From: a bacterium SCSIO 12643
GTDB lineage: Bacteria > Bacteroidota > Bacteroidia > Flavobacteriales_G > Salibacteraceae
Reading direction: 5' to 3'
Assembly: GCA_024398135.1 (NCBI GenBank)
Contig: CP073750.1
Coordinates: 1,488,001-1,552,000 of the forward strand
Length of the DNA stretch: 64,000 bases
The notes under the pieces were generated by a model that was not told where the DNA came from, ran no database searches, and worked only from the letters and a program-made list of their open reading frames with translations. Of the stretch, positions 5,483-41,370 are shown piece by piece (the first letter of the stretch is position 1; every line of letters begins with the position of its first letter). The translations under genes and the position numbers were made by a program.

Positions 5483-5513
5483 ACAACCTCTATTTTAAAA
5501 GCCATTACATTTG
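5483..5513 (+). promoter_or_regulatory. Degenerate LytTR-type direct repeat overlapping a -7 element, kinase gene 1
   Basis: ACAACC at 5483 and ATTACA at 5504 are 21 bp apart start to start. Each differs by one base from the A-N-A-A-C-A half-site seen upstream of the adhesin genes. The second half runs into TACATTTG (5506-5513), a full match to TAnnTTTG. The element lies 20 bp upstream of the ATG at 5534, which argues that translation starts there and not at 5462. Confidence 0.45.
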
Positions 5514-5533
5514 TCTTTTTTCAAACCGCACGC

Positions 5534-7660
5534 ATGAAATCTAGATTTTTCATTCTTCTTTTTTTATGGTCTCTCGTTGGCTATTCTTTTGCTAATAATA
5601 CCATTAATGTGGATTCCTTAAAAGCAGAACTCCAACAAACAACTAATGATTCGATCAAATACGATATCTGTGTTGATCTGGGTATCCATTATGAATACAT
5701 TGATTTCTCTATTGCCAAACAATACTACGATCAATCCAAAGAAATTGCGCTAGCCAATAAATGGTATAAAAAAGTAGGTGACAGCTACTTTAATAAAAGC
5801 TTTTATTACCATTATTCTCTTCAATCCGACACCGCTTTTCAAATGCTTGATGAAGCCCTTAAATGGTATATAAAAGCCGATCACCAAATAGGAGTCTTGA
5901 GTTATTATTTTACTGTGGGGACTTATCAAATGAATCTCGAAGAATTTGACAGTGCCACCGTCTATTTAGAAAAAGCAGTAGCTTACGGAGACACTGCTGC
6001 TTTAAATGACTCCATTTATCTGGATAAATCCTATAATAACCTGGGCCTTCTTTATCAATACCGAGGCTTTTTAGATTTGGCCATCGAAAATTTTATCGTT
6101 GCAGCCAAATTAAGAGAAGAAAGAAACAGCCCTGATATTTTCAGTACCTACATTAATTTAGGATTAAGCTATAGCTCTACTAATCAAAAAGAAGAATCTA
6201 TTCTCTACTATAAAAAGGCTTTAAAAATAACCCATGAACGAAAAGACCTATCTTCAGAATCCCTATGTCTTAATAATATCGGAGAAGTATATTCAACCGA
6301 TTCTAATTCAACTTATGTAGATAGTGCATTTTATTATTATGATCAGGCCTACACTATTTTCGAAACCCTTGGAGATTCTAATTCAATGGCGCGATCACAT
6401 AATTCCAAAGCAGCTATTTACCAAAGACAACATAAATACGATCGTGCCATTCAGGAATATGAAAAAGCACTTGATATGATCCCTTCAAATGGACTAAAAA
6501 GATTACAAATATCTGTAATCAACAACTACACAACCTTAAGACTTGAACTTCCTAACAACACTAAAAAGGATTATCGAGAAATAATCCAGTTGGCCGAAAA
6601 ATCTTATCGTTTATCCAAAGAAACAGGCCTGATCCAGAATAGAAGTATTGCCGCTATGATTTTGTTTCAGGCGTATTCAGAAAACAAACAATTTGAAAAA
6701 GCCTACCCTTTTGGTGCAGAGCATATTGAATTGAGTGATTCACTCAAAAACCAAGCAAGAACAGACGCTTTGGTGGAACAACAAACCAAATTTGAAACGG
6801 AGAAAAAAGAACTGGAAATTGATCTACTGAACAAAGAAAATGAATTGATTTCTAGTCAAATTAAACAAAACAACATTGTCAATTCCAAACAACAACTCAT
6901 CATCTATCTACTCGTTGGCGGAGTCATCACCATTGCCATATTCTTAAGCATTACATTGAGATTTTACCGCACACAACAAAAATCAAACGAAGAACTTGAA
7001 AAGAGTAATAAAACCATCTTAAAGCAGAAAGAAGAAAAGGATGTGCTGCTTAAAGAAATTCATCACCGGGTTAAAAACAACCTGCAAATCATTTGGAGCT
7101 TATTAGACCTACAATCCAACAGTATAAAGGATGCTTATGTTAAAGAAGCCATTAACGATGGTAAAAACAGGGTAAACTCTATGGCCACCATCCACCAAAT
7201 GTTGTATCAAAATGATGATGCCGGAAATATTTCATTTGAAGAATACATCCGTAAACTCACCCAACAAATTCTAAGCACACATAGTCACGCTAAAAATATC
7301 GATCTCGATATTCAAATTCCAAAAGATTTAAAATTTGATATTGATACATCTATTCCATTGGGACTCATTGTAACAGAACTATTTACCAACTCATTAAAAT
7401 ACGGGACAGATTCTAAAAATGGTCGTATTTCGATTACTCTTAAACATCAAAACAATGACCATTACACCCTACTCATTAAAGACAATGGTTCTGGTCTACC
7501 TGAAGGCTTTGAGATCAAAAAATCCAAAAGTTTAGGGCTTAGATTAGTGAAAAACTTATGCAAACAGATCAAGGGAGAATTCCTGATACAAAATGACCAT
7601 GGTGCAGAGTTTATGATTAATTTTAGAGGCACTTTTTTCAATCTGGGGCAACATGAATAA
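5534..7660 (+). CDS. TPR-containing HisKA_2 sensor histidine kinase (pair 1)
   Basis: From the ATG at 5534 the protein has 708 residues and a clean signal peptide (LFLWSLVGYSFAN). The longer frame from 5462 would add 24 residues and bury a likely promoter. A periplasmic region of tetratricopeptide-like repeats (about 35-400) is followed by a coiled coil, one membrane helix (about 455-478), a second coiled coil and the kinase core. The H-box reads EIHHRVKNNLQI, the N-box LFTNSLKYG, and the ATP lid DNGSGLPEG and SLGLRLVKNL. This is the HisKA_2/HATPase architecture. It autophosphorylates on His and passes phosphate to the regulator whose gene overlaps its end by 8 bp. The signal sensed is unknown. 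The protein is paralogous to the kinase at 30145. Confidence 0.9.
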   Translation: MKSRFFILLFLWSLVGYSFANNTINVDSLKAELQQTTNDSIKYDICVDLGIHYEYIDFSIAKQYYDQSKEIALANKWYKKVGDSYFNKSFYYHYSLQSDTAFQMLDEALKWYIKADHQIGVLSYYFTVGTYQMNLEEFDSATVYLEKAVAYGDTAALNDSIYLDKSYNNLGLLYQYRGFLDLAIENFIVAAKLREERNSPDIFSTYINLGLSYSSTNQKEESILYYKKALKITHERKDLSSESLCLNNIGEVYSTDSNSTYVDSAFYYYDQAYTIFETLGDSNSMARSHNSKAAIYQRQHKYDRAIQEYEKALDMIPSNGLKRLQISVINNYTTLRLELPNNTKKDYREIIQLAEKSYRLSKETGLIQNRSIAAMILFQAYSENKQFEKAYPFGAEHIELSDSLKNQARTDALVEQQTKFETEKKELEIDLLNKENELISSQIKQNNIVNSKQQLIIYLLVGGVITIAIFLSITLRFYRTQQKSNEELEKSNKTILKQKEEKDVLLKEIHHRVKNNLQIIWSLLDLQSNSIKDAYVKEAINDGKNRVNSMATIHQMLYQNDDAGNISFEEYIRKLTQQILSTHSHAKNIDLDIQIPKDLKFDIDTSIPLGLIVTELFTNSLKYGTDSKNGRISITLKHQNNDHYTLLIKDNGSGLPEGFEIKKSKSLGLRLVKNLCKQIKGEFLIQNDHGAEFMINFRGTFFNLGQHE

Positions 7661-8378
7661 AGTTAAAATTTTGATCGTTGAGGATGAGATGGTTATCGCC
7701 ATGAATCTGGTTTCTATTCTGGAAGATTTAGGATACGATGTCCTTGATCCGGCTAATTCTTATGACGAAGCAGTGGATGCTTTGAAAGAGGAACAGCCCG
7801 ACATTGCATTATTAGATATTCAACTGGATGGGGATAAAGATGGAATTGATTTTGCCAGATATATCAATCAACATCAAGAAATTCCTTTTATTTATCTGAC
7901 CTCGAATGCAGACTCAAGAACATTAAATCAGGCTAAAGAAACTTCTCCATCTTCCTATCTGGTTAAACCGTTCAATCAGGATGATTTATTCACCTCGATT
8001 GAAATTGCCCTGCATAACTTTAGAGATAAACAAAACGGGGATAAAGAAGATAAAAATGTGGTAATCAAAGATTCCATCTTTGTGAAAAACAAAAACATGT
8101 TTTACAAAGTGAAATTTGATGATATTCTATTCGTAAAAAGCGACCATGTATACCTTGAAATTTATACTGCAAAAAACAAAAAACACCTGCTTCGAGGAAG
8201 TTTAACCGCATTTGCCGAACGACTTCCTAAAAACTTCTTCAGAACTCATCGAAGTTACTTAATCAATCTGGATTATCTGGAAGCTATTAACTCCATTCAC
8301 GTCATTATCAATGATATTCAGGTACCCATTGGAAAAACATACAGAAACGACCTCATGGAAAGTATCCAACTGGAATAG
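7653..8378 (+). CDS. LytTR family response regulator (pair 1)
   Basis: The protein has 241 residues. An N-terminal receiver domain (1-120) has acidic residues IVEDE at 8-12, the phosphoacceptor Asp55 in LLDIQ and a conserved Lys in LVKPF. The C-terminal LytTR DNA-binding domain (about 135-238) shows ILFVKSDHVYLEI and NFFRTHRSYLINLDYL. Its start overlaps the kinase stop by 8 bp, so the two are translationally coupled. It is paralogous to the regulator at 32095. LytTR proteins normally bind two direct half-sites one and two helical turns apart, and such a site lies 50 bp downstream (8429), in front of the next gene. That gene is its most likely target. Confidence 0.92.
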   Translation: MNKVKILIVEDEMVIAMNLVSILEDLGYDVLDPANSYDEAVDALKEEQPDIALLDIQLDGDKDGIDFARYINQHQEIPFIYLTSNADSRTLNQAKETSPSSYLVKPFNQDDLFTSIEIALHNFRDKQNGDKEDKNVVIKDSIFVKNKNMFYKVKFDDILFVKSDHVYLEIYTAKNKKHLLRGSLTAFAERLPKNFFRTHRSYLINLDYLEAINSIHVIINDIQVPIGKTYRNDLMESIQLE

Positions 8379-8428
8379 TTTCAATTATTTATCATTTTCT
8401 TAACCTGTAAATCCTCCTTTTGCTTTTC

Positions 8429-8459
8429 AGAACATAATTCATGTCGTTCATAACATTTG
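8429..8459 (+). promoter_or_regulatory. LytTR-type direct-repeat operator before the 9.8-kb adhesin gene
   Basis: AGAACAT at 8429 and ATAACAT at 8450 form a direct repeat of exactly 21 bp. The second half continues into TTTG (8456-8459), the end of a -7-like element. The coding start is 86 bp downstream and the LytTR regulator gene ends 50 bp upstream. The same arrangement recurs at 29992, 32862 and 41335. Confidence 0.6.
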
Positions 8460-8544
8460 TTATGGTACACCTTTATGCTCACCCTTCTTTTGCTCCAATT
8501 TAAAGAGTCAATCTCACCAAATTTCAAACAAAATTCAAAGGGGC

Positions 8545-11500
8545 ATGAAGAATTTTTTTACTGTTAAATCGTATTCATTTTTAGCCTTGATCGCCATTTT
8601 GGCCATCAGTCTTTTTTCAAATTCCACGGCATATACACAAACGTTAGCCAGTCCATATGTGGTTACCACATTTCCGGCCACTATATCCAGTATCAACACC
8701 GCTGGTGGAGAAACCGCAACGGGTATGCAAGGAGCTTGTTTTACACTACCATGCTGTTCTATTAATGTATTTAAAGTGACATTACCAGCAAATGGCGTGC
8801 TTCGTGTGGAGATGAGCAATTTCAATTTTTTAGCAGGAAGTATCATTGCTTATCGCTCACTCGTTGCAAATCCAACGAGCTATTCTGACCTGCAGTACAT
8901 TTCAGGCTCACCGGGAAACTTTTGCGGATTTAGAGATACCCTACAACTGGGTCGTGCATTTACAGATAACTGGGATAATATTCCATATGGCGGCACACCA
9001 ACTCAATACAGTGGGATTACATCGGTATATGACTTTAATAACCCATCATCTTTAGCAGGATATTATCCTGCGGGAGATTATTACCTCCTGGTATTTAATG
9101 AAAACCAGCAAACCTCTCAGGGACTTGGGGGATTAACAGATTTAACGTTTGAATTTGCTGAAGCATGTGCACCATTGACCGCACCAACTGCTCTAAATTT
9201 TGATACGTTAGAATACAATTCTGAATCAGATACCGTAAGTTTTTATGTAAAAAACCAAAGAACACTTGATGTAGACATCGATACTTCTAATATTAGTATC
9301 ACAGGTACAAACGCCTCTGAGTTTATCTTTTTACCAGTTTCCGATACTTCATTAGCCGTTGGCGACTCCTTGCAATTTCAAGTTGTTTTCACCCCTACAT
9401 CGGGAGGAGCCAGAACAGCATCCATTGAAATTCCTTTTTCTGATACCAGTTGTTCCACAACATCTGAAATATTATTAAATGGATATGGCGCACAACCTGA
9501 AATTGTCTTACTGGGAAATAGTATTAACATTACTAACAACGACCTGACACCATCTACTTCGAACTTCACCAATATGGGACCGGTAGTTACCAATACCGGG
9601 TCGGTCACCAAACTTTTTCAAATCACAAATACGGGTTCAGATACACTTACTTTGACTAACAACCCTATTGTTACTTTATCCGGAAATAGCCAATTTATCA
9701 TCAGTAGTCAACCTGCTTCTTCTGTTCTACCCGGTGATACTACCAGCTTCGAAATCACTTTCACTCCTACCGTTGATGGAACCGTAACCACAGATATATC
9801 CATTGCAAATAATGATCTGGACGAATCCACATTTACATTTAGAATCGAAGCAACCGGAGCTGAACGAAATGGCTTACACTTTGACGGCTCAAATGATTAT
9901 GTCAACATTAACACTGTAGCTGATGACATGGCTGGGATCAACACCTGGACCATTGAATCATGGATCAAAGCGGATCCTTCCCAAACTGGAAACGATCATA
10001 TCATGGCTGTGAACACCACAGGAACCGGCACCATTTTTCTTTTCAGATTAGATGATGGTTTTTTAGATTTCTATGATGGATCAACTGCCTTCGAAGTAGG
10101 TCCTGATTTAAGAGATGACACATGGCACCACGTTGCTGCGACCTATGACAATGGACAATTAAGCTTATTTATTGATGGTATTCCTCAAGGATCATTTAAT
10201 ACCGGAACAATCAGTTTTGCAAGCAACAATAGATGGAGTTTAGGACAGGAATATGATGGAAGTTCCAGAAGTGAGTATTTCAAAGGAGCACTAAACGAAG
10301 TTAGGATTTGGAAAACAGTTAAAACTACACAAGAAATCGCTGATGGTCGTTATTGTGAAATTCAAAATCCGGCTTCAAACACTAACCTAACAGGTTATTA
10401 TACTTTTAACCAGGGTGTATCCGGAGGATCAAATACCAGCATCAATGCAATCACTGATGCATCTGGTTATACAAACGATGGAACTCCAAACAACTTTGCA
10501 TTAACAGGCACCACTTCAAACTTTATTGCAGCCACTAATGTAGGGGTAAACTGTAACTCTGTACGTATTGCCTTATGTGATATTGATTCTTATTCTGTTC
10601 CTGGAGGAAATACCTACACATCATCTGGTGTATATATCGACACATTAACAAATAGTATGGGTGGTGATAGCATTGTATATACGGATCTATCTATTCGATA
10701 CTTCCAAATCACTCAGGATCATATTAATGATACGACCGTATGTGACACCATAAAAGAATTTGCGCAAACATCTTACACTCCATTCGCACGATTTGAAAAT
10801 ACAGACAATGACTGGGTAGAAATAAATGGTGCGGTAGATAGTCTGGTAAATACCAATCGATCCGTATTCTTATGGATGCGTGAAGCTGATCAAATTTCCG
10901 GGAGTGCGGACGTACTTGTTGGTATTAATACGAGCGGGACTGCAACTGTATGTAACTTAGGAATTGCTACTAATGAGCAGCTTTGGATTTATGATGGTGG
11001 AAATAACCGTTACTCAGGCGTTGTAGTTACCGATGGTCAATGGCACTTTGTAGGTTATACTTATGATGAAGCTTCCAATCAAACTCAGTTTTGGGTGGAT
11101 GGAGTCGCAGCCAATTCATTTACAAATGGTCAATCCATAAGTGCCACAAGCCGAATCTCATTAGGACAGGAATTTGACGGATCATCCCCAAGTAATTTCT
11201 ATGATGGTGATATGGCTGAAGTTACTATTTGGAATGAGGTTCTGGATGCTACGGATATTGCATTGCTAATGGAATCATCTGTTCAGACTTCTCATCCAAA
11301 ATACAATAAACTAAAGGCTTACTATCCAATGATCAGCGAATGTAACAACACTGATCTTACCTTAAAAGATTTTGGCCCGCACGCTTACAATGGAACCATG
11401 ACAGCAAATGATATCATTATCACCGATACATTAGCCAATCTTACAGACCACAATGCCGCACCTTTATATAGTAAATCATGGATTAGAAATGGCTCACAAA

Positions 11501-18324: not shown

Positions 18325-18332
18325 TGTAGAAC

Positions 18333-19304
18333 ATGAAAACATTAAACGATATGAAAATCCAGGTTTTATTTTTAAGTCTTGTTCTGGCAACGCTAACAGG
18401 CTTTGGACAACAAAGATCTAATTCCAACTTATACTTGGAAAATCGGGTTCTGATCAACCAAGCATATAGTGGTGTTGATCCGGATAAAGAGCTTTCTCTA
18501 AGCTACCGAAATCAATGGACAGGAATCAGCAATGCTCCTGTAACTACCCAGCTCAATTTTAGAGGTTCAATAAACCGACCAAATTTTGAAGCTGGCAGAA
18601 ATATTCCGACCACATCAAAAACCATTTCTCAACCTATTGTGACACCTAAGAGTTTTTGGGCTTACAACGGAATGATGGTTTATGATAATGCCGGGTTATT
18701 AAATAGGTTGCAATTTTCTGCTGCAGGAGCATATCACCTTCCTGTAACCAGAAAATTGATGGTGGCATTTGCGCCTACATTAACTTACACCAATTTAAAG
18801 GTTGATGTAGATCAAATGAAACTGATTCGACCAAATGACCCGGCATATAATCAATATTTAGCTACTGGAGGTTCGAGTAACTTTCTGGGTATTGATGCCG
18901 CTTTTGTTCTTTACTCCAGAAGATTTTCTCTTGGTGTGACGGCAGAACAATTGGCATGGCTCACACTTTCCAATAATGATTTAGAGGAAGATATTGTCAA
19001 TCATTTTTTTGCGACAGCTGATTACAACTTTAGAGTTTCAGACGACTGGGAAGTGCGTCCAACAATCAACGCAAAAATTGGCAAAGGTTTCCCAACCACA
19101 TACGACTTTTATGCACGTGCAGATTATCGAGATACATTTTGGTTTGGAGCAGGTTATCGCACTTCTAAAATGTGGATTGCTATGCTAGGTGTTCACTTAA
19201 AAGACTCCATTCGATTTGGGTATTCTTATGACACCGGAGTCATTGATGTAAACAACATCACTAAAGGAAGCCATGAAATCTATTTATCATACACTTTTAA
19301 ATAA
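18333..19304 (+). CDS. PorP/SprF family type IX secretion outer-membrane protein
   Basis: The protein has 323 residues and a signal peptide ending at TLTGFGQ. Family hallmarks are an N-terminal LYLENRVLINQAYSG followed by LSLSYRNQWTGISNAP, and repeated amphipathic beta-strands ending in LSYTFK. PorP/SprF proteins are outer-membrane beta-barrels that help export or anchor cargo with type B sorting domains; SprF is needed for SprB in Flavobacterium johnsoniae. The gene starts 8 bp after the giant adhesin, so the two are surely co-transcribed and this is its dedicated partner. A second in-frame ATG at 18351 gives an equally good signal peptide. Confidence 0.92.
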   Translation: MKTLNDMKIQVLFLSLVLATLTGFGQQRSNSNLYLENRVLINQAYSGVDPDKELSLSYRNQWTGISNAPVTTQLNFRGSINRPNFEAGRNIPTTSKTISQPIVTPKSFWAYNGMMVYDNAGLLNRLQFSAAGAYHLPVTRKLMVAFAPTLTYTNLKVDVDQMKLIRPNDPAYNQYLATGGSSNFLGIDAAFVLYSRRFSLGVTAEQLAWLTLSNNDLEEDIVNHFFATADYNFRVSDDWEVRPTINAKIGKGFPTTYDFYARADYRDTFWFGAGYRTSKMWIAMLGVHLKDSIRFGYSYDTGVIDVNNITKGSHEIYLSYTFK

Positions 19305-19311
19305 GCCAGGC

Positions 19312-20673
19312 ATGATCAAGTATATTACATTATTTTCAGCCGTATTATCCAGTCAGGTAGGATTCTCAAGCGGAGACAGCACATTAACTCCATTCGATAC
19401 GATCTCAGAACAAAACGTGGTACAACTCCTTCAATCTAAAACTGATTCGGGAGACTATATCATGCCAGTTTCCGTAAGCCCCAAAACAGCTTACTTTACT
19501 AAAATTCAAACTTCAAAAAGTGACCGGGATGCCGATGTTACAATGGAACCATACTCCATGGAAATTTCCGAATCACTTTCTCAAGCCATCAATGAGAATA
19601 AACCACCTTATTGGAGTTCAAAAAACACCAAAACAATTATTGGAGCTTCACAAAACAATGACACCATTTATGTAATGGGCTCCAATGATGAACGCCTAAA
19701 CTTCCAACAAGGACTTCTAAGAATTCATAAAGAATCAGTAGGATGGTCAAAACCTGAAAAGTTAAAAATCAAATGGTTCAAACCCACCTCATGGAATTAT
19801 GGGATGTCTATGCATTCATCGGGTGATATTCTGTTGATATATCAAAAATCAGTGATCTCAGATGACTTTGAAATTTTTGTTTCGTTTAGAGAAGCTCCTA
19901 AAGTATATGGGAAACCAATTAAGTTAGAATGCATCTGTACCACAAATGATGAAATTACGCCCTATCTAAGTGAAGACAAAAAAAGATTGTATTTCGCTTC
20001 GAATGGACATGCTGCAGATTCAACTTCGAATAACTATGACCTTTTCGTTTCTCAGGTTTTAAATGATGACTTTTCATTACTTTCTAAACCGGAAAGATTA
20101 CCGGAACATATCAATCTAGAAAAGTCTTTTGAAGCATACATTTCTGAAATCGATTCAAATCATATCATCTTTTCATCCGATCGTGATGGCAAAGGAATGC
20201 GCTTGTACACCACAAGAATCACACGCGGATATGTAAAACCGGCTCCAATAATTGAAGAAGTCATTCCTGAGCCGGAACCAGTTGTTGTGGAAGAAATCAT
20301 TCCAGAACCCATTCCGGAAGAACCTAAAAAAATCGTTTTAAGTAGTGAAGAACTCAATTTTGGTTCTAATCAAGCCAATGTTTCGCAAGAGGCTATAAAA
20401 CAATTAAACGCTAATTTCCCTTTTACTCCTGAAACAGATGCCAGCACAGAATCCATTACGATTACCGGATATACAGATTCTATGGGTTCAGAAAATTACA
20501 ACCTTTCCTTATCCAAAAAAAGAGCTGAAGCCATGAAAAAAGCTCTGGTAGAACTGGGTTGGAGTCCGGATAAAATCATCACTATCGGAAAAGGGGAAGC
20601 TGATCCAATTGCCGATAATGGTACGCCAGAAGGACGCGCCCAAAACAGACGAGTCGAGTTTTTAGTAAAATAA
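19312..20673 (+). CDS. OmpA-family peptidoglycan-binding protein with PD40-like repeats
   Basis: From the ATG at 19312 the protein has 453 residues and a signal peptide (LFSAVLSSQVGFSSG). The in-frame ATG at 19273 would overlap the previous gene by 32 bp and spoil that signal. The middle holds PD40/WD40-like beta-propeller blades (for example LSEDKKRLYFASNG). A Pro/Glu-rich linker (near 20260-20330) leads to a C-terminal OmpA domain with the peptidoglycan-binding pattern GYTDSMGSENYNLSLSKKRA and NRRVEF. It resembles PorE-like proteins that tie T9SS outer-membrane parts to the cell wall. It is the third gene of an adhesin-PorP/SprF-OmpA operon, a common Bacteroidota arrangement. Confidence 0.9.
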   Translation: MIKYITLFSAVLSSQVGFSSGDSTLTPFDTISEQNVVQLLQSKTDSGDYIMPVSVSPKTAYFTKIQTSKSDRDADVTMEPYSMEISESLSQAINENKPPYWSSKNTKTIIGASQNNDTIYVMGSNDERLNFQQGLLRIHKESVGWSKPEKLKIKWFKPTSWNYGMSMHSSGDILLIYQKSVISDDFEIFVSFREAPKVYGKPIKLECICTTNDEITPYLSEDKKRLYFASNGHAADSTSNNYDLFVSQVLNDDFSLLSKPERLPEHINLEKSFEAYISEIDSNHIIFSSDRDGKGMRLYTTRITRGYVKPAPIIEEVIPEPEPVVVEEIIPEPIPEEPKKIVLSSEELNFGSNQANVSQEAIKQLNANFPFTPETDASTESITITGYTDSMGSENYNLSLSKKRAEAMKKALVELGWSPDKIITIGKGEADPIADNGTPEGRAQNRRVEFLVK

Positions 20674-20717
20674 ATTCATTCAACATACCCACACATAAAT
20701 TGGAGATTCCACATCTC

Positions 20718-20745
20718 AAAAGCACCATAAATTTATGGTGCTTTT
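20718..20745 (+). terminator. Rho-independent terminator after the adhesin operon
   Basis: A perfect 14-bp palindrome (20718-20731 and 20732-20745) ends in a T run extending to 20748. It closes the operon that ends at 20673. Confidence 0.8.
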
Positions 20746-20944
20746 TTTATGCTTAACCCAATACGTAAAATTACCCAATTCATGATTCAGGTAATTTCAC
20801 TCTAAGATTCATAGTATCAATCTTCCATATTTGTAAGGATGATTATCTCACTTTCGTCAAATTGCCACACACAGGAATATCCTACTACGAGCCTGAATAT
20901 CATCACAACATGTAATTAATTATAAACCTTATAAATTTTATTCT

Positions 20945-21520: not shown

Positions 21521-21600
21521 ATCACAGTCTATTTTATTTACATTGAGGAGTTTATCCTCACAATTTCAATTAACATTAACAATTTTAAATTATATCAATC

Positions 21601-22176: not shown

Positions 22177-22206
22177 TTATATACATCATAAAAACAATTC
22201 ATACCA

Positions 22207-22234
22207 CCTGAAGCCATCATAGTATGGCTTCGGG
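22207..22234 (+). terminator. Rho-independent terminator after tail collar genes
   Basis: An 11-bp stem (22207-22217 with 22224-22234, including one G-U pair) has a 6-nt loop and is followed by a T-rich tract. Confidence 0.7.
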
Positions 22235-25400: not shown

Positions 25401-28400
25401 TAATTGTACCGGGTCACCTACCATTACACAATCTCCAACTTCTGGAGCAACTCTTGGTTTAGGTACTACTACGATTACTTTAACGGCTACAGATGGATCG
25501 GGTAATACGGCAACTTGTACGGTTAACCAAACCGTTGTTGACAATACGGCACCTACGATTACTATTTGTGCTTCTACACCAAGTAACCTAATTGGAAATA
25601 GTTCAGATCAAGCACCTGCTCCGGATTTAACCGGTTCAGTAACCGCTACTGATAATTGTACTGGTTCACCTACCATTACACAATCTCCAACTTCTGGAGC
25701 TACGCTTGGCTTAGGTACAACGACAATTACTTTAACAGCTACAGATGGATCGGGTAATACAGCAACCTGTACCGTAAACCAAACTGTAGTGAGTGGATAT
25801 AGTGCAACAATTTCTGCACAAACAAACGTTTCTTGTAATGGTTTAGCTGATGGTTCTGCAACGGCTGCTCCGTCTGGAGGAACAACGCCATATACATATG
25901 CATGGAGTAATGGTGCCAATACAGCCACTACAACGGGACTTGCAGCTGGAACTTATACCGTAACAATTACTGAAGGAGGTACCAATACTGCAACGACCAC
26001 TGTGACCATAACACAGCCTAATGCTTTAGTTGCAACAATAAGCATCGATTCAAATGTATCTTGTAATGGATTTAGCAATGGTGGAGCTACAGCTTCTGCT
26101 ACGGGTGGAACTCCAACATATTCTTATGCATGGAACAACGCTGCAACTAATGCTTCTATTACCGGAGTGGTTGCAGATGCATATACCGTAACAATTACGG
26201 ATGCGAACGGATGTACTGCTACAAATAGCAATACTATTACCGAACCTGCAGTTTTAGTGGCTTCAGTAGTCATCGACTCAAATGCTTCTTGTAACGGATA
26301 TTCTGATGGTGGGGCTACGGCTTCTGCTACGGGTGGTACCTCTGCATATAGCTATGCCTGGTCTAATGCCGCTACTAATGCTTCAATTACCGGAGTAGTT
26401 GCTGGCACTTATACCGTAACTATTACGGATGCAAATGGATGTACCGCAACGAATAGTAATGCTGTTACTGAACCTGCAGCTTTAGTAGCTGCTACGGTTG
26501 TAGATTCCAACGCTTCTTGTAATGGATATTCAAATGGTGGAGCTACAGCTTCCGCAACAGGTGGTACCACAGCCTATAACTATTTATGGTCTAATGCTGC
26601 AACAAATGCTTCAATTACTGGAGTAGTTGCTGGTACTTATACTGTTACCATTACGGATGCAAACGGTTGTACATCAACAAGCTCATCAACCGTTACTGAA
26701 CCTGCTGCTCTTGTGGCTGCCGTAGTTATTGATTCAAATGTAACCTGTAATGGTTTCTCTAATGGAGGCGCAACGTCTTCTGCTACTGGTGGTACAATGC
26801 CTTACAGCTACTTCTGGAACAACACATCTACAAATGCTTCAATCACTGGAGTTACCGCAGCGACATATACGATCACAATCACTGATGCCAAAGGGTGTAC
26901 GGCTTCCAGTAATGGTACCATTACTGAACCAACTATCCTTATTGCTGCTACAGTTGTAGATTCTAATATTTCATGTAACGGCTATTCTGATGGAGGGGCG
27001 ACTGCATCCGCTACGGGTGGCACAGGAGCTTACTCTTATGCATGGAACAATGGAGCGACCAACGCTTCTATTACTGGTGTGGTTGCGGGTACTTATACAG
27101 TAACTATCACCGATGCAAACGGTTGTACATCAACAAGCGCTGTTAGTATTACTGAACCTGCTGCTCTTGTGGCTGCAACAATTGTGGATTCTAACATTTC
27201 TTGTAATGGTCTTGCAGACGGTGGGGCTTCAGCATCTGCAACTGGTGGAACAATGCCTTATTCTTATGCATGGTCAAATGGTGCTAATGTGGCTTCAATT
27301 TCATCTCTTGCTGCTGGTACGTATACTATAACTGTAACCGATGCGAATGGATGTACTGCTACAAGTGCATCTACAGTTACCGAGCCTGCTGCTCTGGTAG
27401 CAGCATCAGTTGTTGATTCTAATGTATCATGTAACGGATTCGCTGATGGTGGAGCTACGGCTTCAGCTGCTGGCGGAACAATGCCTTATTCTTATGCGTG
27501 GTCAAATGGTGCTACCACAGCTTCAATTACTGGAGTTGTAGCTGGTACTTATACGGTAACTATTACGGATGCAAATGGATGTATGGACATCACTTTATCC
27601 ACTGTAACTGAGCCAACTTTGTTGGTTGCCGGAACAGTAGTTGATTCTAATGTGACTTGTCACTCCGGAACAAATGGTGGTGTAACTGCCTCTGCTACGG
27701 GTGGAACCGGTGCATATTCTTACGCTTGGAGCAATGGCGCAACTACCGCTTCAATTACTGGTGTTGCTGCCGGAAACTATACCGTAACTGTAACGGATGC
27801 GAATGGATGTACTTCTTCTGCATCTACTCCGGTGACTCAACCTACAGCACTTATCGCTGCAACTGTAGTGGATTCAAATATTACTTGTAACGGTCTTTCA
27901 GACGGTGGCGCAACAGCTTCTGCTACAGGAGGTACTGGTGCATATTCTTATATGTGGAATAACGCTGCTACTACAGCATCCATTACTGGTGTGATCGCAG
28001 GAACTTATTCTGTAACTGTTACAGATGCAAATGGGTGTACCGATTCTACTTCTGTCATCATCACTGAACCTGCTGCTCTTGTCGCTAGTACAGTTGTCGA
28101 TAATAATGTTTCTTGTAATGGTCTTGCAGACGGTGCGGCTACAGCTTCTGCTACTGGTGGTACTGGGGCTTATACATATACCTGGTCAACCGGTGCTACT
28201 ACAGCAACTGTAACTGGTCTCGCTGCTGGTACTTATTCTGTCACTATCGTTGATGCTAACGGTTGTTCTGCAAATACTTCAATTACCATTACAGAGCCTG
28301 CAGCTCTTGTCGTTACTACAACCGTAGTTTCTAATGTATCTTGTAATGGCGTTTGTGATGGAGAAATCTCTGCCAATATCACCGGTGGATCTGCTCCATA

Positions 28401-29931: not shown

Positions 29932-29954
29932 ATTTAAATTTTAAATATCTTCAT

Positions 29955-29982
29955 AAAAAGGCGGCCTTTGGGTCGCCTTTTT
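29955..29982 (+). terminator. Rho-independent terminator
   Basis: AAAAAGGCG (29955-29963) pairs with CGCCTTTTT (29974-29982). Inner G-U and G-C pairs extend the stem, and a T run follows. It lies 24 bp after the adhesin stop codon. Confidence 0.8.
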
Positions 29983-29991
29983 TATTTCCCA

Positions 29992-30018
29992 ACAACAACT
30001 TGCAAAACACTAATAACA
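29992..30018 (+). promoter_or_regulatory. LytTR-type direct-repeat operator before kinase gene 2
   Basis: ACAACA at 29992 and ATAACA at 30013 are exactly 21 bp apart, both matching A-N-A-A-C-A. The kinase start is about 130 bp downstream. This suggests the second kinase/regulator pair controls its own expression. Confidence 0.5.
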
Positions 30019-30144
30019 AACTATTTAAAAATCAAAATGATTTTATTTATGTACTTCTCCACATTAAATAGTAATAAATCGTTTTAATTTGTAGTCGCTA
30101 TACAACATACGTAATTACGAAATCTCCACACAATCACGTAGTTT

Positions 30145-32082
30145 ATGAATACTAGAAATCTTATTGTATTTGTTTTTACCTTTTTCTTTATTACAAATAC
30201 ATATTCCCAGGAAACCACATTCAGCTTATCAGACATAGAAGATTCCATCCTACTGGAAAAATTTGATGTCGCTCAAAAAATGATTCAGGGTAATGACACC
30301 TCTGAATACATGCAGGTGCTAAATAGAATCAGTAAACAAAACGCATCTAATTTAGACTACGTTAAGTATATCGCCAAGATGCAAAACAAGGTCAACAGCA
30401 ACTTTGACGGAATTGTCGCTTTTATTGATCGTAATGTTACGGTTCCACAAAATGATTCTGTGGACTATAATTATGTGAAGTTAATTTGGGTAAAGCTCAC
30501 TACGTTGACAAACACCAACAAGTTAGAACAAGCAAATACAGAACACCAAAAACTAGAACAATACATTGCACAATTTGATCCGAATCAAAGAAATACAAAA
30601 CGTGCGCAAATTCTAGCAAGTACTTACCCGATTACTCTGTATATCATTCAAGAAAACATCGAAGAGGGCAAAAAACTGTGCCTGGAAAATCAAAAAACAG
30701 CAACCGAGATTAAGGATACCAACCTAATCATCAACTCCCTGTATTATCTGAGCGAATTTTTGATCTTCGAAAGAAATCTGGATGAATATATCCGAGTAAG
30801 CGAATATGCCTACGAACTAGATCAATTGCAATATGAAAAAAGTGCTTTTTATATTGGTAACATGATGCATTTGGCGGATGCCTATATCTTTAAAGGAGTT
30901 TCGGGGTCTAAAATATTACCACTACTAAATGAACTTTATCAGATACCAAATAGCCGTTTAGGAACTTATTCCTATTTCATTAAATATCTGGGAACAATAG
31001 AAATTCCTTCACCAGAAAGTGATTCTATCTTTAATGCTTTCCAAAGTGAAAACCTCATTCAATTTTGTGAGCATGCGGCTCAACAATCAGAAGGTAAACT
31101 GGACAATGTAGAGTTTTATCATTTATTGAATGAAATCTCTAACACACTCGCTAGATTTGGCCATTATCAAGCTGCATTGGATTTCAAAGACCAGTGTATT
31201 TACATCACCAAACAGAATTACTCTCAGGATTTATCGAAGTCATTGGCACAATATGAGACCAATCTCTTAAAACAAAAACAGGAACTGGAATTAGAAAACG
31301 AAAAACAAAAAACAGAAATGTATTTTGTGATCACACTTCTGGTTGGAGTTTTATTTGCTATCGCCATCATTGCTATTGTTATGATGCGCAAAAAGGAACG
31401 TCTGCTCAAAACTAAAAACGAAGAAATCACCAGACAAAGAGACGATATTCAAAAGAAAGAAGAAGAAAAAGCCACTCTTCTTAAAGAAATTCACCATCGG
31501 GTTAAAAATAACTTCCAGGTCATTTCTAGTCTATTGGAACTTCAATCCTCAGGAATCGAGGACAAAAAAGCCTTAGAATTGGCACAGGAAGGAAAAAACA
31601 GAATTAACTCTATGGCGTTGATTCACAAAAAACTATATGAAAACGATGATCTCATCATGTTCTTTGATGAGTATCTGGTGAAACTCGTGAATGATCTAAC
31701 TGAGATGTATGGCAAAAAAGATCAACTCAAAATTCAAACCGATATCCCGCATATTGCTTTCGACATTGATACCGCTATCCCTCTTGGACTTATTGTAAAT
31801 GAGCTGGTCACTAATGCATTAAAATACGGAACCGGAAATAACACACCCGAATTATCCGTATCCATTGAAAAAGATCAAAACGAAACATATACTTTACATG
31901 TTCAGGATAATGGTGCTGGAATTCCGGATCATTTAAACATCAAACAATTAAGAAGTTTAGGTTTGCAATTGGTTCAGGGTCTATCCAAACAACTTCAGGG
32001 AAGTTTTGAGTTTATCAATCAAAATGGCGCACACTTTATTGTAACGTTTAAAGATACATATACCAGATCTCTAACCGATTAA
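30145..32082 (+). CDS. HisKA_2 sensor histidine kinase (pair 2)
   Basis: The protein has 645 residues and a signal peptide (FFFITNTYSQ, about residue 22). A helical, TPR-like periplasmic region (about 25-375) is followed by a coiled coil, one membrane helix (about 393-415), a second coiled coil, and the kinase core with EIHHRVKNNFQVISSLLELQ, N-box LVTNALKYG, and DNGAGIPDH plus SLGLQLVQGL. The architecture matches the kinase at 5534, but the sensor region is clearly diverged, so the two may sense different cues. The gene is followed 12 bp later by its LytTR partner. A LytTR-type site upstream suggests autoregulation. Confidence 0.9.
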   Translation: MNTRNLIVFVFTFFFITNTYSQETTFSLSDIEDSILLEKFDVAQKMIQGNDTSEYMQVLNRISKQNASNLDYVKYIAKMQNKVNSNFDGIVAFIDRNVTVPQNDSVDYNYVKLIWVKLTTLTNTNKLEQANTEHQKLEQYIAQFDPNQRNTKRAQILASTYPITLYIIQENIEEGKKLCLENQKTATEIKDTNLIINSLYYLSEFLIFERNLDEYIRVSEYAYELDQLQYEKSAFYIGNMMHLADAYIFKGVSGSKILPLLNELYQIPNSRLGTYSYFIKYLGTIEIPSPESDSIFNAFQSENLIQFCEHAAQQSEGKLDNVEFYHLLNEISNTLARFGHYQAALDFKDQCIYITKQNYSQDLSKSLAQYETNLLKQKQELELENEKQKTEMYFVITLLVGVLFAIAIIAIVMMRKKERLLKTKNEEITRQRDDIQKKEEEKATLLKEIHHRVKNNFQVISSLLELQSSGIEDKKALELAQEGKNRINSMALIHKKLYENDDLIMFFDEYLVKLVNDLTEMYGKKDQLKIQTDIPHIAFDIDTAIPLGLIVNELVTNALKYGTGNNTPELSVSIEKDQNETYTLHVQDNGAGIPDHLNIKQLRSLGLQLVQGLSKQLQGSFEFINQNGAHFIVTFKDTYTRSLTD

Positions 32083-32094
32083 AAGCTTATAGTT

Positions 32095-32820
32095 ATGGGG
32101 AAAATAAAAGTTTTGATTGTTGAAGATGAAATGATTATTTCAAACAATATTAAATTTTCTTTAATGGATAATGGTTACGAAATCTCAGAACAGGCCATTA
32201 ACTATACCGAAGCCATCGCGGCTATTGAAAATGAAGTTCCGGATATCGCACTTTTAGACATCCAACTATCTGGAAAAAAGAGTGGCATCGAACTCGGAGC
32301 TGAAATCAATAAACGCTTTAAATTCCCTTTTATCTTTTTGACATCAAATGCAGATAGCCAAACAGTAAATAAAGCCAAAAGCGTAGAGCCTGCCGCTTAT
32401 CTGATCAAGCCTTTTAGTAGTGTAGAATTGTCTACCTCTATTGAAATTGCGTTATACAATTTCTCTAAGCGGAATGAAAAAGCACTGAATCAGGAAAATC
32501 TGGTCATTAAAGATTCTCTGTTTATCAAAAAGAACAAAAACTTTATTCGAATTGACTTTAAAGATATCCTCTTTATCAAAAGTGATCATATTTATATCGA
32601 GATTGAAATGGTTGATGGAACGCAACACGTCATTCGTGGAAGCCTGAACGAATATATCAACAAACTATCCGGGAACTTCTTTAGATGTCATCGAAGTTAT
32701 ATTGTAAACCTGGATTACATGCAAACTGTAACTCATAATGAACTCATTATTTTAGAAAAAACGATTCCATTAGGAAAACGTCATAGAGAAGAACTCTTAA
32801 CGGTAATTAATAAATCCTAA
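32095..32820 (+). CDS. LytTR family response regulator (pair 2)
   Basis: The protein has 241 residues, the same length as the regulator at 7653, with aligned features: IVEDE, phosphoacceptor Asp55 in LLDIQ, Lys in LIKPF, then a LytTR domain with ILFIKSDHIYIEI and NFFRCHRSYIVNLDYM. The DNA-contacting half of the LytTR domain is well conserved between the two paralogues, so both may recognise the same or similar half-sites. The gene lies 42 bp upstream of a 21-bp direct repeat (32862) and 134 bp upstream of a giant adhesin gene. Confidence 0.92.
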   Translation: MGKIKVLIVEDEMIISNNIKFSLMDNGYEISEQAINYTEAIAAIENEVPDIALLDIQLSGKKSGIELGAEINKRFKFPFIFLTSNADSQTVNKAKSVEPAAYLIKPFSSVELSTSIEIALYNFSKRNEKALNQENLVIKDSLFIKKNKNFIRIDFKDILFIKSDHIYIEIEMVDGTQHVIRGSLNEYINKLSGNFFRCHRSYIVNLDYMQTVTHNELIILEKTIPLGKRHREELLTVINKS

Positions 32821-32861
32821 CTGTTTCTTTCGATTTTCTCACATCACTTTTTTACAGCCCT

Positions 32862-32897
32862 ACAACACGAATCCGCAACCTGAGAACATTTATTTTG
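32862..32897 (+). promoter_or_regulatory. LytTR-type direct-repeat operator before FG-GAP/SprB adhesin
   Basis: ACAACA at 32862 and AGAACA at 32883 are 21 bp apart. The second half continues TTTATTTTG to 32897. The stretch TGAGAACATTT is shared with the site at 41335, as is the 13-bp distance from ACAACA to TGAGAACA. The start codon is 57 bp downstream. Confidence 0.6.
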
Positions 32898-32954
32898 CCC
32901 ACTTTGGAGGTGTCATTTCTTTGCATTTAAAACCATACTAATACTGTATAAGAA

Positions 32955-37883: not shown

Positions 37884-37909
37884 GCATCGCATTATTTATA
37901 ATCAAACAA

Positions 37910-37939
37910 GAAAAAGGTATCTATATAGATACCTTTTTC
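37910..37939 (+). terminator. Rho-independent terminator
   Basis: A perfect 30-bp palindrome (15-bp arms, 37910-37924 and 37925-37939) has a T-rich 3' arm. It follows the adhesin stop codon by 26 bp. Confidence 0.8.
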
Positions 37940-37983
37940 TGTTTCTAGATAATTTGAATCATTCACTTACATTTGAAATTCCT

Positions 37984-40900
37984 ATGCACACATTCATTAC
38001 ATATTTCTCCGCAGTTATTTTGCTATTCTCTTTCGTAGGATGCAATGAAAGCACTCAAAAAAAACAAATTCAAGCACCTTCTACGCCTCAGATAAAACCG
38101 AAATTTCAGGCTTTATCTTCTGAAAAAACAAACATCCATTTCACCAATACCATTGTGAAAGAAACGGAGGAAATGAATTGCTTCAACTTCTTCAATATGT
38201 ATAATGGCGGAGGGGTTGCAATTGGGGATATCAATAATGATGGGATGGCTGATATCTATTTTACCGGGAATCAGGTCGACAATAAACTTTATCTGAATAT
38301 GGGTAATCTGACGTTCAAAGACATCACCTCAAAAGCACAGGTATCAGGTAAAAAAGAATGGACCACAGGAGTTACTATGGCCGATGTCAATGGTGATGGA
38401 TGGTTGGATATTTATGTATGTCAATCCGGAGGGCAAAACTCTTCGGATATGAAAAACTTACTTTTCATCAATAATCAGGATCTTACATTTACGGAATCTG
38501 CTGAAAAATATGGTTTAGCAGATGCGGCAAGATCCAACCATGCCGCTTTTTTTGATTATGACCATGATGGAGATCTGGATATCTACATTTTAAATCACCC
38601 TATAGGGTTTGGAGATTACATTTCTACACGACTTCAAAAAGCAAAAAATCCATCTGATCTGGAAACCGATAAATTATTCAGAAATGACGGTAACCATTTT
38701 ACAGAAGTGACCAATCAGGCAGGAATTCGAAACTACGGATTTGGCTTAAGTATTAGCCCTGCGGATTACAATAATGATGGGTGGATAGATTTGTTTATTG
38801 CCAACGATTATTCCGAACCTGATCATCTGTATATCAATAATGGAAACGGAACTTTTACGGATAGCATTCACCAGCAAATGAAACATATTTCCCAGTTTTC
38901 TATGGGAAGCAGTGCCAATGACATCAACAATGATGGCTTAACCGATCTTCTGGTTCTGGACATGATGGCCGAAGACAATAAACGGAAAAAGACCAATATG
39001 CAGGGGATGGATATTCAGGCCTTTTATACCAACTATGCTTTGGGCAGACACCTCCAATACATGCAAAATGTTTTACAACTCAACAGAGGAAATGGTCAAT
39101 TTAGTGATATCGGGGAACTTGCTGGAGTTTCAAATACGGATTGGTCCTGGTCTCCATTAATTTGCGATTTGGATAATGACGGTTGGAAAGACATTTACAT
39201 TACCAACGGAATCAAACGCGATTTAAGAAACAATGATTTCCAAAAATCAATCTCAAAGTATTCTTCCAAAGATATCATCCAACAATTTAAAGAACTTCAA
39301 TCCCAAATGCCATCCGTACCTATTGACAACTATGTATATCAAAATAATCAGGACCTAACTTTTACGAAAAAAGAATCAAATTGGGGACTGAACTATAAAG
39401 GGTTTTCGAACGGTGCTGCCTACGCAGACTTCGATAACGATGGCGATTTGGATTTAGTAGTTAACAACATGGATACCGAAGCTTTGATTTTCGAAAACAC
39501 TACAAAATCAACCAATTTCTTAAGAGTAAAACTTGAGGGGGCAGATTTAAATAAATGGGGTATCGGAGCAAAAATCACATTGATCACCGGTGACCACATG
39601 CAACATAATATATTGACCACCAATCACGGTTTTCTATCTTCTTCTGAACCTATTGCACACTTCGGACTGGGAAAAATTTCCAAAGTGGATTCTTTAATCA
39701 TTGATTGGCCCAATTCAAAACAAAGCGTTTATGTAAATCCTAAAATCAATGGACTGCTCACCATTAAATATGAAGACATTCAAAATCCCAAAACACATTC
39801 GAATTCTGAGTTAAATTTTAGTTTCCAGGACATCATCTCAAAAAGTCAAATTGATTTTGTACATCAAGAAGAGTTTTACGAAGATTATGATCGTGAAATT
39901 CTTTTACCACATAGGTATTCTCAAAATGGTCCATTCATAACCGTGGGTGATGTGAACGGTGATGGACTAGAAGATTTCTTTGTGGGAGGAGCTTCCAAAC
40001 AATCAGGTAAGCTCTTTATTCAAAAAGTCAATGGCTCATTTGTACAGGCTTCAAGTCAACCTTGGCAGCAACACAAAGATCAGGAAGATATGGGCGTCTC
40101 ATTTATAGACATTGACAACGATCAGGATTTAGACCTATATGTAGCGAGCGGCAGTAATGAATGGCCTGAAAATAGTCCGATGTATCAAGATCGGATTTAT
40201 GTGAATGACGGTCAGGGGAATTACCAACACGATCCAACCCTCCTTCCGGAAAACTTCACAAGTACTTCAGCCATTGCGGTCGCTGACTTTGATCAGGATG
40301 GAGATCAGGATATTTTTATAGGAGGTCGAATCACTCCCGGAAAGTATCCGTATACACCTAAAAGTTATTTACTCATTAATCAGAATGGAAAATTTACGGA
40401 CCAAACGCAATCACTAGCACCCGAATTAAGTAATCTGGGAATGGTCACCGAAGCCATTTGGGCCGATTACGATCAGGATCAGGACTTAGACCTTGTGTTA
40501 TCTGGTGAATGGATGCCGATTACTATCATGAAAAATGAATCCGGTAAACTTTCTAACATAACTCCAACAACTTCATTAAACAACTATACAGGTTGGTGGT
40601 ACTCTATTGCAGTAGGTGATTTTGATAACGATGGCGACATGGACTTTATTGGAGGTAATTTAGGATTAAATTCCAAATATCAAACTCAGGATGGGCCGCT
40701 AGAAGTTTACGCTGGTGATTTGGACCACAACAACTCTCATGACATCATTTTAGGATATTACTCGGAAAATCAATGTTATCCTTTAAGAGGACGAACTTGT
40801 TCGTCACAACAAATGCCATCTATCTCCAAACGAATCCCTACATATGATGCATTTGGGAACTCCAGTTTATCAGATGTTTATGGAAAAGAATTAGATAATG

Positions 40901-41298
40901 CTTTCCATAAAAAAGTCAATTGGCTCGCGACTTCATATTTTGAAAATATGGGAAATGATTCGTTTGCAATTCATCAATTACCATCATTAGTGCAACTATC
41001 TGTCACTAACAAAATCATTCCATATGATTTAAATCGCGATGGAAATTTAGATCTCATCATAGGTGGAAATATGTATAGTGCAGAGATTGAAACTGCCAGA
41101 CATGATGCTTCATATGGTTTGGTTCTTATAGGATCTGGTAATGGACAATTTATTCCAATTGAAAACTATGATTCTCATTTGAACTTAGATGGTGATATCA
41201 AAGACATTGATTTTATCCACGATCAAAACCAAAATATTCAAATAATCGCCACCAGAAATAACGCACCACTGCTACTGCAAAAAATATTGACAGAATAA
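37984..41298 (+). CDS. FG-GAP/ASPIC-UnbV (CRTAC1-like) lipoprotein
   Basis: From the ATG at 37984 the protein has 1104 residues and a lipoprotein signal (SFVGC, Cys20). An in-frame TTG at 37954 is a poorer start. Many FG-GAP blades with Ca2+-binding loops (GDINNDGMADIYF, DVNGDGWLDIYV, DYDHDGDLDIYI, DFDNDGDLDLVV) form two propeller regions around an ASPIC/UnbV domain (about residues 505-590). This is the CRTAC1-like family common in Bacteroidota, often with polysaccharide-use genes, though none is seen here. It sits between two adhesins and behind a terminator, with its own transcription likely. Surface binding is inferred; no enzyme activity is shown. Confidence 0.9.
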   Translation: MHTFITYFSAVILLFSFVGCNESTQKKQIQAPSTPQIKPKFQALSSEKTNIHFTNTIVKETEEMNCFNFFNMYNGGGVAIGDINNDGMADIYFTGNQVDNKLYLNMGNLTFKDITSKAQVSGKKEWTTGVTMADVNGDGWLDIYVCQSGGQNSSDMKNLLFINNQDLTFTESAEKYGLADAARSNHAAFFDYDHDGDLDIYILNHPIGFGDYISTRLQKAKNPSDLETDKLFRNDGNHFTEVTNQAGIRNYGFGLSISPADYNNDGWIDLFIANDYSEPDHLYINNGNGTFTDSIHQQMKHISQFSMGSSANDINNDGLTDLLVLDMMAEDNKRKKTNMQGMDIQAFYTNYALGRHLQYMQNVLQLNRGNGQFSDIGELAGVSNTDWSWSPLICDLDNDGWKDIYITNGIKRDLRNNDFQKSISKYSSKDIIQQFKELQSQMPSVPIDNYVYQNNQDLTFTKKESNWGLNYKGFSNGAAYADFDNDGDLDLVVNNMDTEALIFENTTKSTNFLRVKLEGADLNKWGIGAKITLITGDHMQHNILTTNHGFLSSSEPIAHFGLGKISKVDSLIIDWPNSKQSVYVNPKINGLLTIKYEDIQNPKTHSNSELNFSFQDIISKSQIDFVHQEEFYEDYDREILLPHRYSQNGPFITVGDVNGDGLEDFFVGGASKQSGKLFIQKVNGSFVQASSQPWQQHKDQEDMGVSFIDIDNDQDLDLYVASGSNEWPENSPMYQDRIYVNDGQGNYQHDPTLLPENFTSTSAIAVADFDQDGDQDIFIGGRITPGKYPYTPKSYLLINQNGKFTDQTQSLAPELSNLGMVTEAIWADYDQDQDLDLVLSGEWMPITIMKNESGKLSNITPTTSLNNYTGWWYSIAVGDFDNDGDMDFIGGNLGLNSKYQTQDGPLEVYAGDLDHNNSHDIILGYYSENQCYPLRGRTCSSQQMPSISKRIPTYDAFGNSSLSDVYGKELDNAFHKKVNWLATSYFENMGNDSFAIHQLPSLVQLSVTNKIIPYDLNRDGNLDLIIGGNMYSAEIETARHDASYGLVLIGSGNGQFIPIENYDSHLNLDGDIKDIDFIHDQNQNIQIIATRNNAPLLLQKILTE

Positions 41299-41334
41299 AA
41301 GTTTAAAACACTCACATCTATTTAAAAGGGTTTT

Positions 41335-41370
41335 ACAACAGTATTTCGATCAGTGAGAACATTTTTTTTG
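41335..41370 (+). promoter_or_regulatory. LytTR-type direct-repeat operator before the third type A adhesin
   Basis: ACAACA at 41335 and AGAACA at 41356 are 21 bp apart; the second half continues in a T tract ending TTTG at 41370. It shares TGAGAACATTT with the site at 32883. No kinase or regulator gene adjoins this adhesin, so the site would act in trans. Confidence 0.6.

Follow-up and report, generated by a model that had tools for sequence, protein, structure and literature searches.

In Bacteroidota, giant adhesins of the SprB type are used for gliding and attachment. The window, by which we mean the whole 64,000-nucleotide stretch analysed (bacterium SCSIO 12643, GenBank assembly GCA_024398135.1, contig CP073750.1, positions 1,488,001 to 1,552,000, forward strand), carries two pairs of a HisKA_2 histidine kinase gene and a LytTR response regulator gene, HK1/RR1 (5533-8378) and HK2/RR2 (30145-32820), and a giant adhesin gene lies directly behind each pair. 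An initial annotation had noticed the direct repeat ANAACA-N15-ANAACA in front of three adhesin genes and both kinase genes, and had proposed that the LytTR regulators control adhesin genes in cis and in trans as well as their own operons. We find that three of the sites, named O1, O2 and O3, are best explained as conserved LytTR operators at the promoters of three adhesin genes, acted on by the regulators encoded just upstream; judged from sequence, we put the probability of this reading at roughly 0.8. The repeat itself, its pitch, its conservation, its fixed distance to a -7 box and its tie to one clade of LytTR regulators are directly observed.

Conservation of the repeat beside related regulators

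Because the pattern had been picked after the window was viewed, counts in the window and its genome alone are not decisive, and it is other genomes that decide. Among 35 genomes of the family, 9 carry a regulator of this group at E <= 1e-50, giving 16 regulators with the two of the window included. The other 14 regulator loci, from eight genomes and with 12.8 kb of intergenic DNA, served as the comparison set (L024, L030 and L059 are the same contig and were counted once). With the half-site left unchanged and at most one mismatch allowed, these loci hold 19 pairs at a spacing of 21, compared with 0-8 at every other spacing from 10 to 44, and perfect half-site pairs number 6 at 21 compared with 0-1 elsewhere.

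An array is present in 11 of the 14 loci. In six of these (L059, L060, L066, L069, L071 and L072) it lies directly between the regulator stop and an adhesin gene. The array of L065 stands behind the kinase gene, that of L068, though 3.8 kb away from the regulator, still precedes the adhesin gene, one array of L062 precedes an adhesin gene, and that of L061 faces an open reading frame (ORF) without a Pfam match at 1e-6. A matrix built with each genome left out in turn and scored at all positions on both strands ranked the array first in 10 of 11 loci; the exception was L062, where copies elsewhere in the same locus scored higher and the array came third. A first matrix was partly built from the other-genome sites that it then found; the clean tests are the spacing count with the unchanged half-site and the leave-one-genome-out matrix. 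Across 14 aligned sites (3 in the window and 11 elsewhere), mean identity is 76% and 71% in the half-sites and 29% and 27% in the two spacers, compared with 27% expected from composition. Thus, the letters between the halves are random and the pitch is kept.

Occurrence of the repeat in the window and the genome

Four perfect pairs are present in the window as first reported, at 8429/8450, 29992/30013, 32862/32883 and 41335/41356, all on the + strand and all intergenic (intergenic DNA is 4.9% of the window by our own gene choice); a fifth, at 53136 inside an ORF, had been missed. Shuffled sequences gave an expectation of 0.55 matches, and five were reached in 0 of 100 shuffles. The pair at 5483/5504 reads ACAACC/ATTACA, with the one mismatch per half that had been described. 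In the genome-wide scan proposed with the annotation, the bare pattern is not special, with 74 matches in 4.118 Mb compared with 52 for the reversed-pattern control. In the same 4.118 Mb the extended form, ANAACA-N15-ANAACATTT, which runs into ATTT, has 4 matches and its reversed control 0, and three of the four are 8429, 32862 and 41335, before the three adhesin genes. The matrix derived from other genomes ranked 8429 first in the window, 41335 second, 5483 54th, 29992 270th and 53136 1150th.

Chance matching in A-rich intergenic DNA, as the abundance of the bare pattern might suggest, is how 5483, 29992 and 53136 are best read. For the three adhesin promoters it is scarcely credible: hardly any match of the extended pattern falls outside this locus, and for 8429 and 41335 chance is further contradicted by the conservation of the halves, but not of the spacers, in other genomes. 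The sites at 8429, 32862 and 41335 are best read as real promoter elements, predicted from sequence features; for 32862 these are its match to the extended pattern, the third half-site CTCACATC that 41335 also has, a -7 box at the usual offset and the place behind RR2.

Distance between the repeat and predicted -7 boxes

The -7 box of Flavobacterium psychrophilum sigma-A promoters is described as TAnnTTTG, spanning -12 to -5 (PMC9723704). Counted from the first base of the right half, a box with 5/6 matches was found at 34-36 bases in 12 of 14 sites (16 were listed, with L062 9965- and L072 8968+ left out), compared with just 4 of 1078 cells at the remaining 77 offsets (10 to 89); the two sites without it are in L068 and L069. 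Boxes of this quality also occur at offsets 7-9 (7 cells, T-runs), and the peak at 34-36 is sharp and isolated. The nominal P of 2e-15 is too small because the sites are related. The fixed offset places the right half at about -46 and the left half at about -67, and the third copy that occurs beside RR2-type regulators at about -88.

In the window (Table 1), O1 lies between RR1 and adhesin 1 and begins 47 nt behind the RR1 stop, and O2 lies between RR2 and adhesin 2 and begins 17 nt behind the RR2 stop. Their 9-bp half-sites and 12-bp spacers, with a pitch of 21, have LytTR-type repeat geometry. Transcription starts are predicted near 8497 (O1), 32928 (O2) and 41402 (O3), leaving leaders of 27 to 57 nt before the adhesin genes. 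The TTTG that had been placed close to -7 more probably belongs elsewhere: TTTTG (TTATG at O1) would sit at -33, with the -7-like boxes about 20 bp downstream, and the earlier assignment was probably wrong.

This geometry bears on the sign of control. The same operators might serve repression, the bound protein blocking the promoter until the signal relieves it, as for CoxC, which represses through three LytTR repeats overlapping -35 (PMC11347149); the right half here does end near the -33 position. The arrays nevertheless lie upstream of -33, and most LytTR regulators bound upstream of -35/-33 are reported to activate (PMC11347149); the repeats of AgrA promoters are centred near -60 (PMC4227749), and the -7 boxes are imperfect (5/6 at best), as expected of activator-dependent promoters. 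We consider repression unlikely and activation the more likely mode.

Agreement between site details and regulator clades

The regulator tree has three clades. Clade A holds RR1, G001, G012:C129 and G019 (support 99/98), with G018:C12 branching near and grouped with it; clade B holds RR2, G018:C27, G015:C56, G012:C165 and G013 (support 100/99); and clade C holds G018:C19, G015:C270, G004 and the array-less G008:C9 and G015:C206 (support 88/97). Site features, judged by eye, appear to go with these clades in copy number, half-site letters and -7 offset. Group A arrays have two copies of the TTC-AG-AACA or TTC-GT-AACA type, with a -7 offset of 36 in four of five. All six clade B arrays have a third copy (in O2 and O3 the first copy is degenerate), and their offset is 35 in five and 34 in one. 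In clade C the halves read AGCACA or GGCACA; two of the three arrays have a third copy, and the offset is 35 in two. The third copy is absent from all five arrays of the RR1 group; accordingly the triple repeat is found in O2 and O3 and not in O1. Among the modules scanned, laminin-G adhesins occur with groups A and C and FG-GAP/SprB adhesins with B. Part of the agreement is accounted for by shared inheritance, because site and regulator adjoin.

RR1 and RR2 might instead share all three sites and cross-regulate them as one joint regulon that includes control in trans; the two proteins have 48% identity, and all three sites share the ANAACA core. This is doubtful, since O2 and O3 have the CTCACATC third half, an ACAACA left half and a GAGAACA right half that are absent from O1, and the third copy separates the RR2 clade from the RR1 group in other genomes too. 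Of the proposed control of adhesin genes, the cis part is supported by the pitch, the place in the module, the conservation, the -7 distance and the repeats beside other LytTR genes described below; the trans part is not supported, the site details going with the regulator clade.

Profile searches beyond the locus

A sequence-only profile model, R1, was built from the 14 sites. In its own genome it finds three significant places, all of them the window sites, and the next match has E 0.028; the window sites were in the training set, so their E-values are circular, while the absence of other sites is not. A wider regulon is not supported. Eight of the nine family genomes with the regulator group have a match below 4e-5 (14 of those sites trained R1), and the 26 family genomes without this group have no match better than E 0.0046.

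One untrained match (E 1.6e-4) came from G001, a genome of the same genus (L120, about 9854, minus strand; G001:C78:14798-14853). It is an extra, perfect operator that lies past the end of a gene with a type IX secretion system (T9SS) tail, and its -7 box, TACATTCG, stands at offset 35, though the model match ended before those columns. No ORF of 100 aa follows in the orientation of this operator. Its predicted transcript would contain two hairpins and a perfect 30-nt palindrome and is perhaps a small RNA, although L120 gave no Rfam match at gathering thresholds.

Over 295 genomes of the class, 11 genomes outside the family had matches at E <= 0.003, such E-values being rough; 10 loci were inspected (L135 was left out), with Pfam scans for the four best, G104, G238, G113 and G086 (E 8e-5 to 5e-4). 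The match in G104 lies about 6 nt behind a HisKA_2-LytTR pair, upstream of a phosphatidylinositol-specific phospholipase C (PI-PLC)-like gene and an SprB/lectin T9SS gene. That in G238 precedes an operon of His_kinase, redoxin-like and LytTR genes, that in G113 is upstream of a receiver-like gene (below the Pfam cut-off), and that in G086 is before an FG-GAP T9SS cargo gene. A 5/6 box stands at offset 35 in G104, G238 and G113 and a 4/6 box in G086, R1's own columns including the box. ORF lists alone, without Pfam, showed no telling neighbours at the remaining six loci. Among the weak matches of R1 in the family genomes, that at G018:C3:441026 (E 0.002) is probably due to chance, as this perfect pair abuts an ATG and a -7 box could not fit at offset 35, and those in G006, G025, G001:C83 and G000:2036098 are in or at the edge of ORFs or are poor repeats.

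Motif-free 21-bp repeats beside other LytTR genes

LytTR binding, if it is what sets the pitch, predicts a pitch of 21 with other letters beside further LytTR genes. We therefore took the intergenic DNA around LytTR genes and, without any motif, counted 9-mers that recur with 8 or more matching positions. For the 17 other LytTR genes of the same genome, spacing 21 has 9 such repeats, whereas 26 other spacings average 0.5 and none exceeds 3, and 40 further LytTR loci from seven genomes, which we chose among the matches listed before viewing their sequence, have 10 compared with a mean of 1.8 (maximum 5). Thirty OmpR-type control loci gave 2 at 21 and 5 at 22, with a mean of 1.4. A 21-bp repeat within 160 bp behind the regulator stop was found in 5 of the 17 own loci (other spacings averaging 0.31), in 4 of the 40 further loci (0.65), and in 0 of 27 in a set with one locus per genome. 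The mild peak of the control loci (L171-L200) at 22 would fit the tandem 11-bp half-sites of OmpR/PhoB-type regulators.

The five own-genome cases (L006, L016, L017, L019 and L022) are LytTR response regulators whose stop codon is followed, after 0-28 bp, by a 21-bp direct repeat of their own, in the place that O1 and O2 occupy; the repeat letters include TTCATGAA, GTCAGTT and TACAGRTTC. With RR1 and RR2 added to these 5 of 17 other LytTR genes, we tentatively propose, at slightly less than even odds, that many LytTR regulators of this family form cassettes of a regulator gene, a private pitch-21 repeat behind its stop and a controlled gene, often for a surface or secreted protein. If so, paralogue-specific half-site letters would insulate the regulators of genomes with many LytTR genes (19 here and up to 76 in a relative), and operators could be read from sequence without a known motif. 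For LytTR regulators that lack known targets, the motif-free result provides a simple route to candidate operators.

These repeats also bear on whether another factor, either a transcription factor or an alternative sigma factor, binds the repeat of the window, with its LytTR neighbourhood incidental. We regard this as very improbable, as a sigma-A-type -7 box stands at a fixed distance downstream, the details of each site go with the clade of its regulator, other LytTR genes adjoin 21-bp repeats of different letters, and the 26 family genomes without the regulator clade have no match better than E 0.0046.

Sites before the kinase genes

The proposal that the regulators control their own operons was not supported. 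Taken as operators, the pairs before HK1 (5483..5509, +) and HK2 (29992..30018, +) have the low matrix ranks given above and no -7 box at offsets 33-37. Under the matrix that leaves their own genome out, their scores were reached by 34 of 300 and 143 of 300 shuffles, which is like chance. Upstream of 12 kinase genes (2 in the window and 10 in other genomes) there was no convincing array, the best scores being reached by 17-276 of 300 shuffles. The exception is a pair between kinase and regulator at L072 8968.

Predicted mode of control

In the mechanism that we propose, a signal sensed by HK1 (or HK2) would lead to phosphorylation of RR1 (or RR2). RR1 would then bind a pair of direct half-sites and RR2 a set of three, each 21 bp from the next and all on one face of the helix, at about -46 and -67 (and -88 for RR2). 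The bound regulator, beside a weak -33 region, would recruit sigma-A RNA polymerase to the TAnnTTTG-type -7 box. RR1 would drive adhesin 1 and the PorP/SprF and OmpA genes, and RR2 would drive adhesins 2 and 3. Binding, phosphorylation, the signal and activation over repression are what we infer from the arrangement of sites and genes.

Several observations weigh against regulation of the adhesin genes through these operators. The site at 32862 is the weakest of the three, with an other-genome matrix score of 6.0 that 20 of 300 shuffles reached, and the circular R1 E-values count here as well. No array was found in 3 of the 14 loci (L063, L064 and L067) despite a regulator of this group, nor in the more distant L073 and L025. 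The three-copy array of L062 at 9965-10010 (-), which separates the regulator stop from the gene that follows, is oriented back towards the regulator, and that of L070 at 4900-4985 (-), behind the regulator, faces a 48-aa ORF with a hydrophobic stretch and not an adhesin gene. In the motif-free count, 29 one-per-genome LytTR loci showed no clear excess at 21 (1 compared with 0.9), and neither did a set of 21 loci from more distant relatives, with 3 repeats at 21 and as many at 20; these two sets limit any general 21-bp rule. The main proposal provides exact predicted operators, transcription starts and regulators for SprB-type adhesins, all directly testable.

Gene organization of the locus

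The coordinates of genes and predicted sites are listed in Table 1. The PorP/SprF-like and OmpA-family genes presumably share the operon of adhesin 1, judging by their spacing.

Table 1. Genes and predicted regulatory sites of the adhesin locus (window positions).
Feature	Position	Strand	Details
HK1, HisKA_2 histidine kinase with TPR repeats	5533..7660	+	Pfam HisKA_2 2.2e-28, TPR; ORF listed from 5462, ATG at 5533 preferred by our judgement
RR1, receiver and LytTR response regulator	7653..8378	+	Pfam Response_reg 2.2e-22, LytTR (PF04397) 2.7e-19
Operator O1 (predicted)	8426..8455	+	TTCAGAACA 8426-8434, TTCATAACA 8447-8455; pitch 21
-7 box of O1 (predicted)	8485..8492	+	TTCTTTTG; offset 36 from right half, 5/6 matches to TAnnTTTG
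Adhesin 1, 3259 aa	8545..18324	+	Pfam: laminin-G, LTD, SprB, DUF285 repeats, CHU_C T9SS signal
PorP/SprF-like gene and OmpA-family gene	18333..20673	+	Pfam; 18333-19304 and 19273-20673
HK2, HisKA_2 histidine kinase	30145..32082	+	Pfam HisKA_2 1.4e-23
RR2, receiver and LytTR response regulator	32095..32820	+	Pfam Response_reg 5.6e-18, LytTR (PF04397) 7.7e-17
Operator O2 (predicted)	32838..32888	+	CTCACATCA 32838-32846 (weak third half), CCTACAACA 32859-32867, CTGAGAACA 32880-32888; pitch 21
-7 box of O2 (predicted)	32916..32923	+	TTTCTTTG; offset 34, 5/6 matches
Adhesin 2, 1642 aa	32955..37883	+	Pfam: FG-GAP, SprB repeats, Por_Secre_tail
FG-GAP / UnbV_ASPIC protein, between both RR2-type promoters	37954..41298	+	Pfam
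Operator O3, before adhesin 3 (predicted)	41311..41361	+	CTCACATCT 41311-41319 (weak third half), TTTACAACA 41332-41340, GTGAGAACA 41353-41361; pitch 21
-7 box of O3 (predicted)	41390..41397	+	TAATCTTG; offset 35, 5/6 matches
Adhesin 3	41459..45868	+	Pfam: SprB repeats, Por_Secre_tail; ORF listed from GTG 41405, ATG 41459 preferred by our judgement

Two adjacent genes with a phage tail collar domain (PF07484; 20945-22176) precede a further SprB adhesin gene at 22447, and by ORF lists two ORFs of L063 (G008; 7026-8210), whose N-termini are like those of the collar genes, also precede a giant gene. Stretches of a 228-bp-period repeat in two adhesin genes (27839-28138 and 43776-44075) are 92% identical, and the adhesin gene at 22447 contains ten 252-bp units (23272-25839) that are 74-90% identical to the first unit. 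This suggests exchange and expansion of repeats among the adhesin genes.

Comparison with known systems

Published LytTR sites are described as two or three direct repeats of 9 bp with 10-13 bp between them (PMC11347149), and the match to them makes the architecture found here one of a known kind. A close parallel in layout is AgrA, likewise a receiver and LytTR regulator, whose 9-bp half-sites are separated by about 12 bp, at a pitch of 21, and lie upstream of -35/-33. Its promoters have a long -35 to -10 spacer of 18-20, resembling the roughly 19-20 bp here, and the motif FFRCHNS named for AgrA is close to FFR[TC]HRS, which is kept in both RR1 and RR2 (PMC4227749). Unlike AgrA, the present system has half-sites with TTCAGAACA-type letters, a Bacteroidota -7 box, T9SS adhesin targets and a HisKA_2 partner kinase.

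RcoM1 and CoxC use triplets, and the RcoM1 half-site TTCNNGCA resembles by eye the TTCAG(A/C)ACA seen here (PMC11347149). Three direct repeats with a pitch of about two helix turns are thus common to them and to O2, O3 and the RR2 clade. RcoM1 and CoxC are one-component carbon monoxide sensors, CoxC being a repressor, whereas RR1 and RR2 have receiver domains and partner kinases and are encoded beside adhesin genes.

In LytTR regulatory systems (LRS) the direct repeats are reported to be 11-13 bp apart and mostly about 10 bp upstream of -35 (PMC6193735), and placement shortly upstream of -35 is the shared trait. LRS pair a LytTR regulator with a membrane inhibitor and regulate their own operons, whereas here the partner is a HisKA_2 kinase and the operator precedes the next gene, with none found before the kinase. 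PorX is not known to be a LytTR protein. As far as published accounts describe it, PorXY-SigP is likewise a two-component control of T9SS-related genes in Bacteroidota; it acts on T9SS component genes via an extracytoplasmic function (ECF) sigma factor, whereas here the targets are cargo adhesins, with LytTR regulators and a sigma-A-type box. Full-text searches of open-licence papers, as far as their text was covered, found no LytTR operator for Bacteroidota adhesins. What is new here is the association with T9SS adhesin modules, the sequence of the half-site, the fixed Bacteroidota -7 geometry and the private repeats beside some other LytTR genes.

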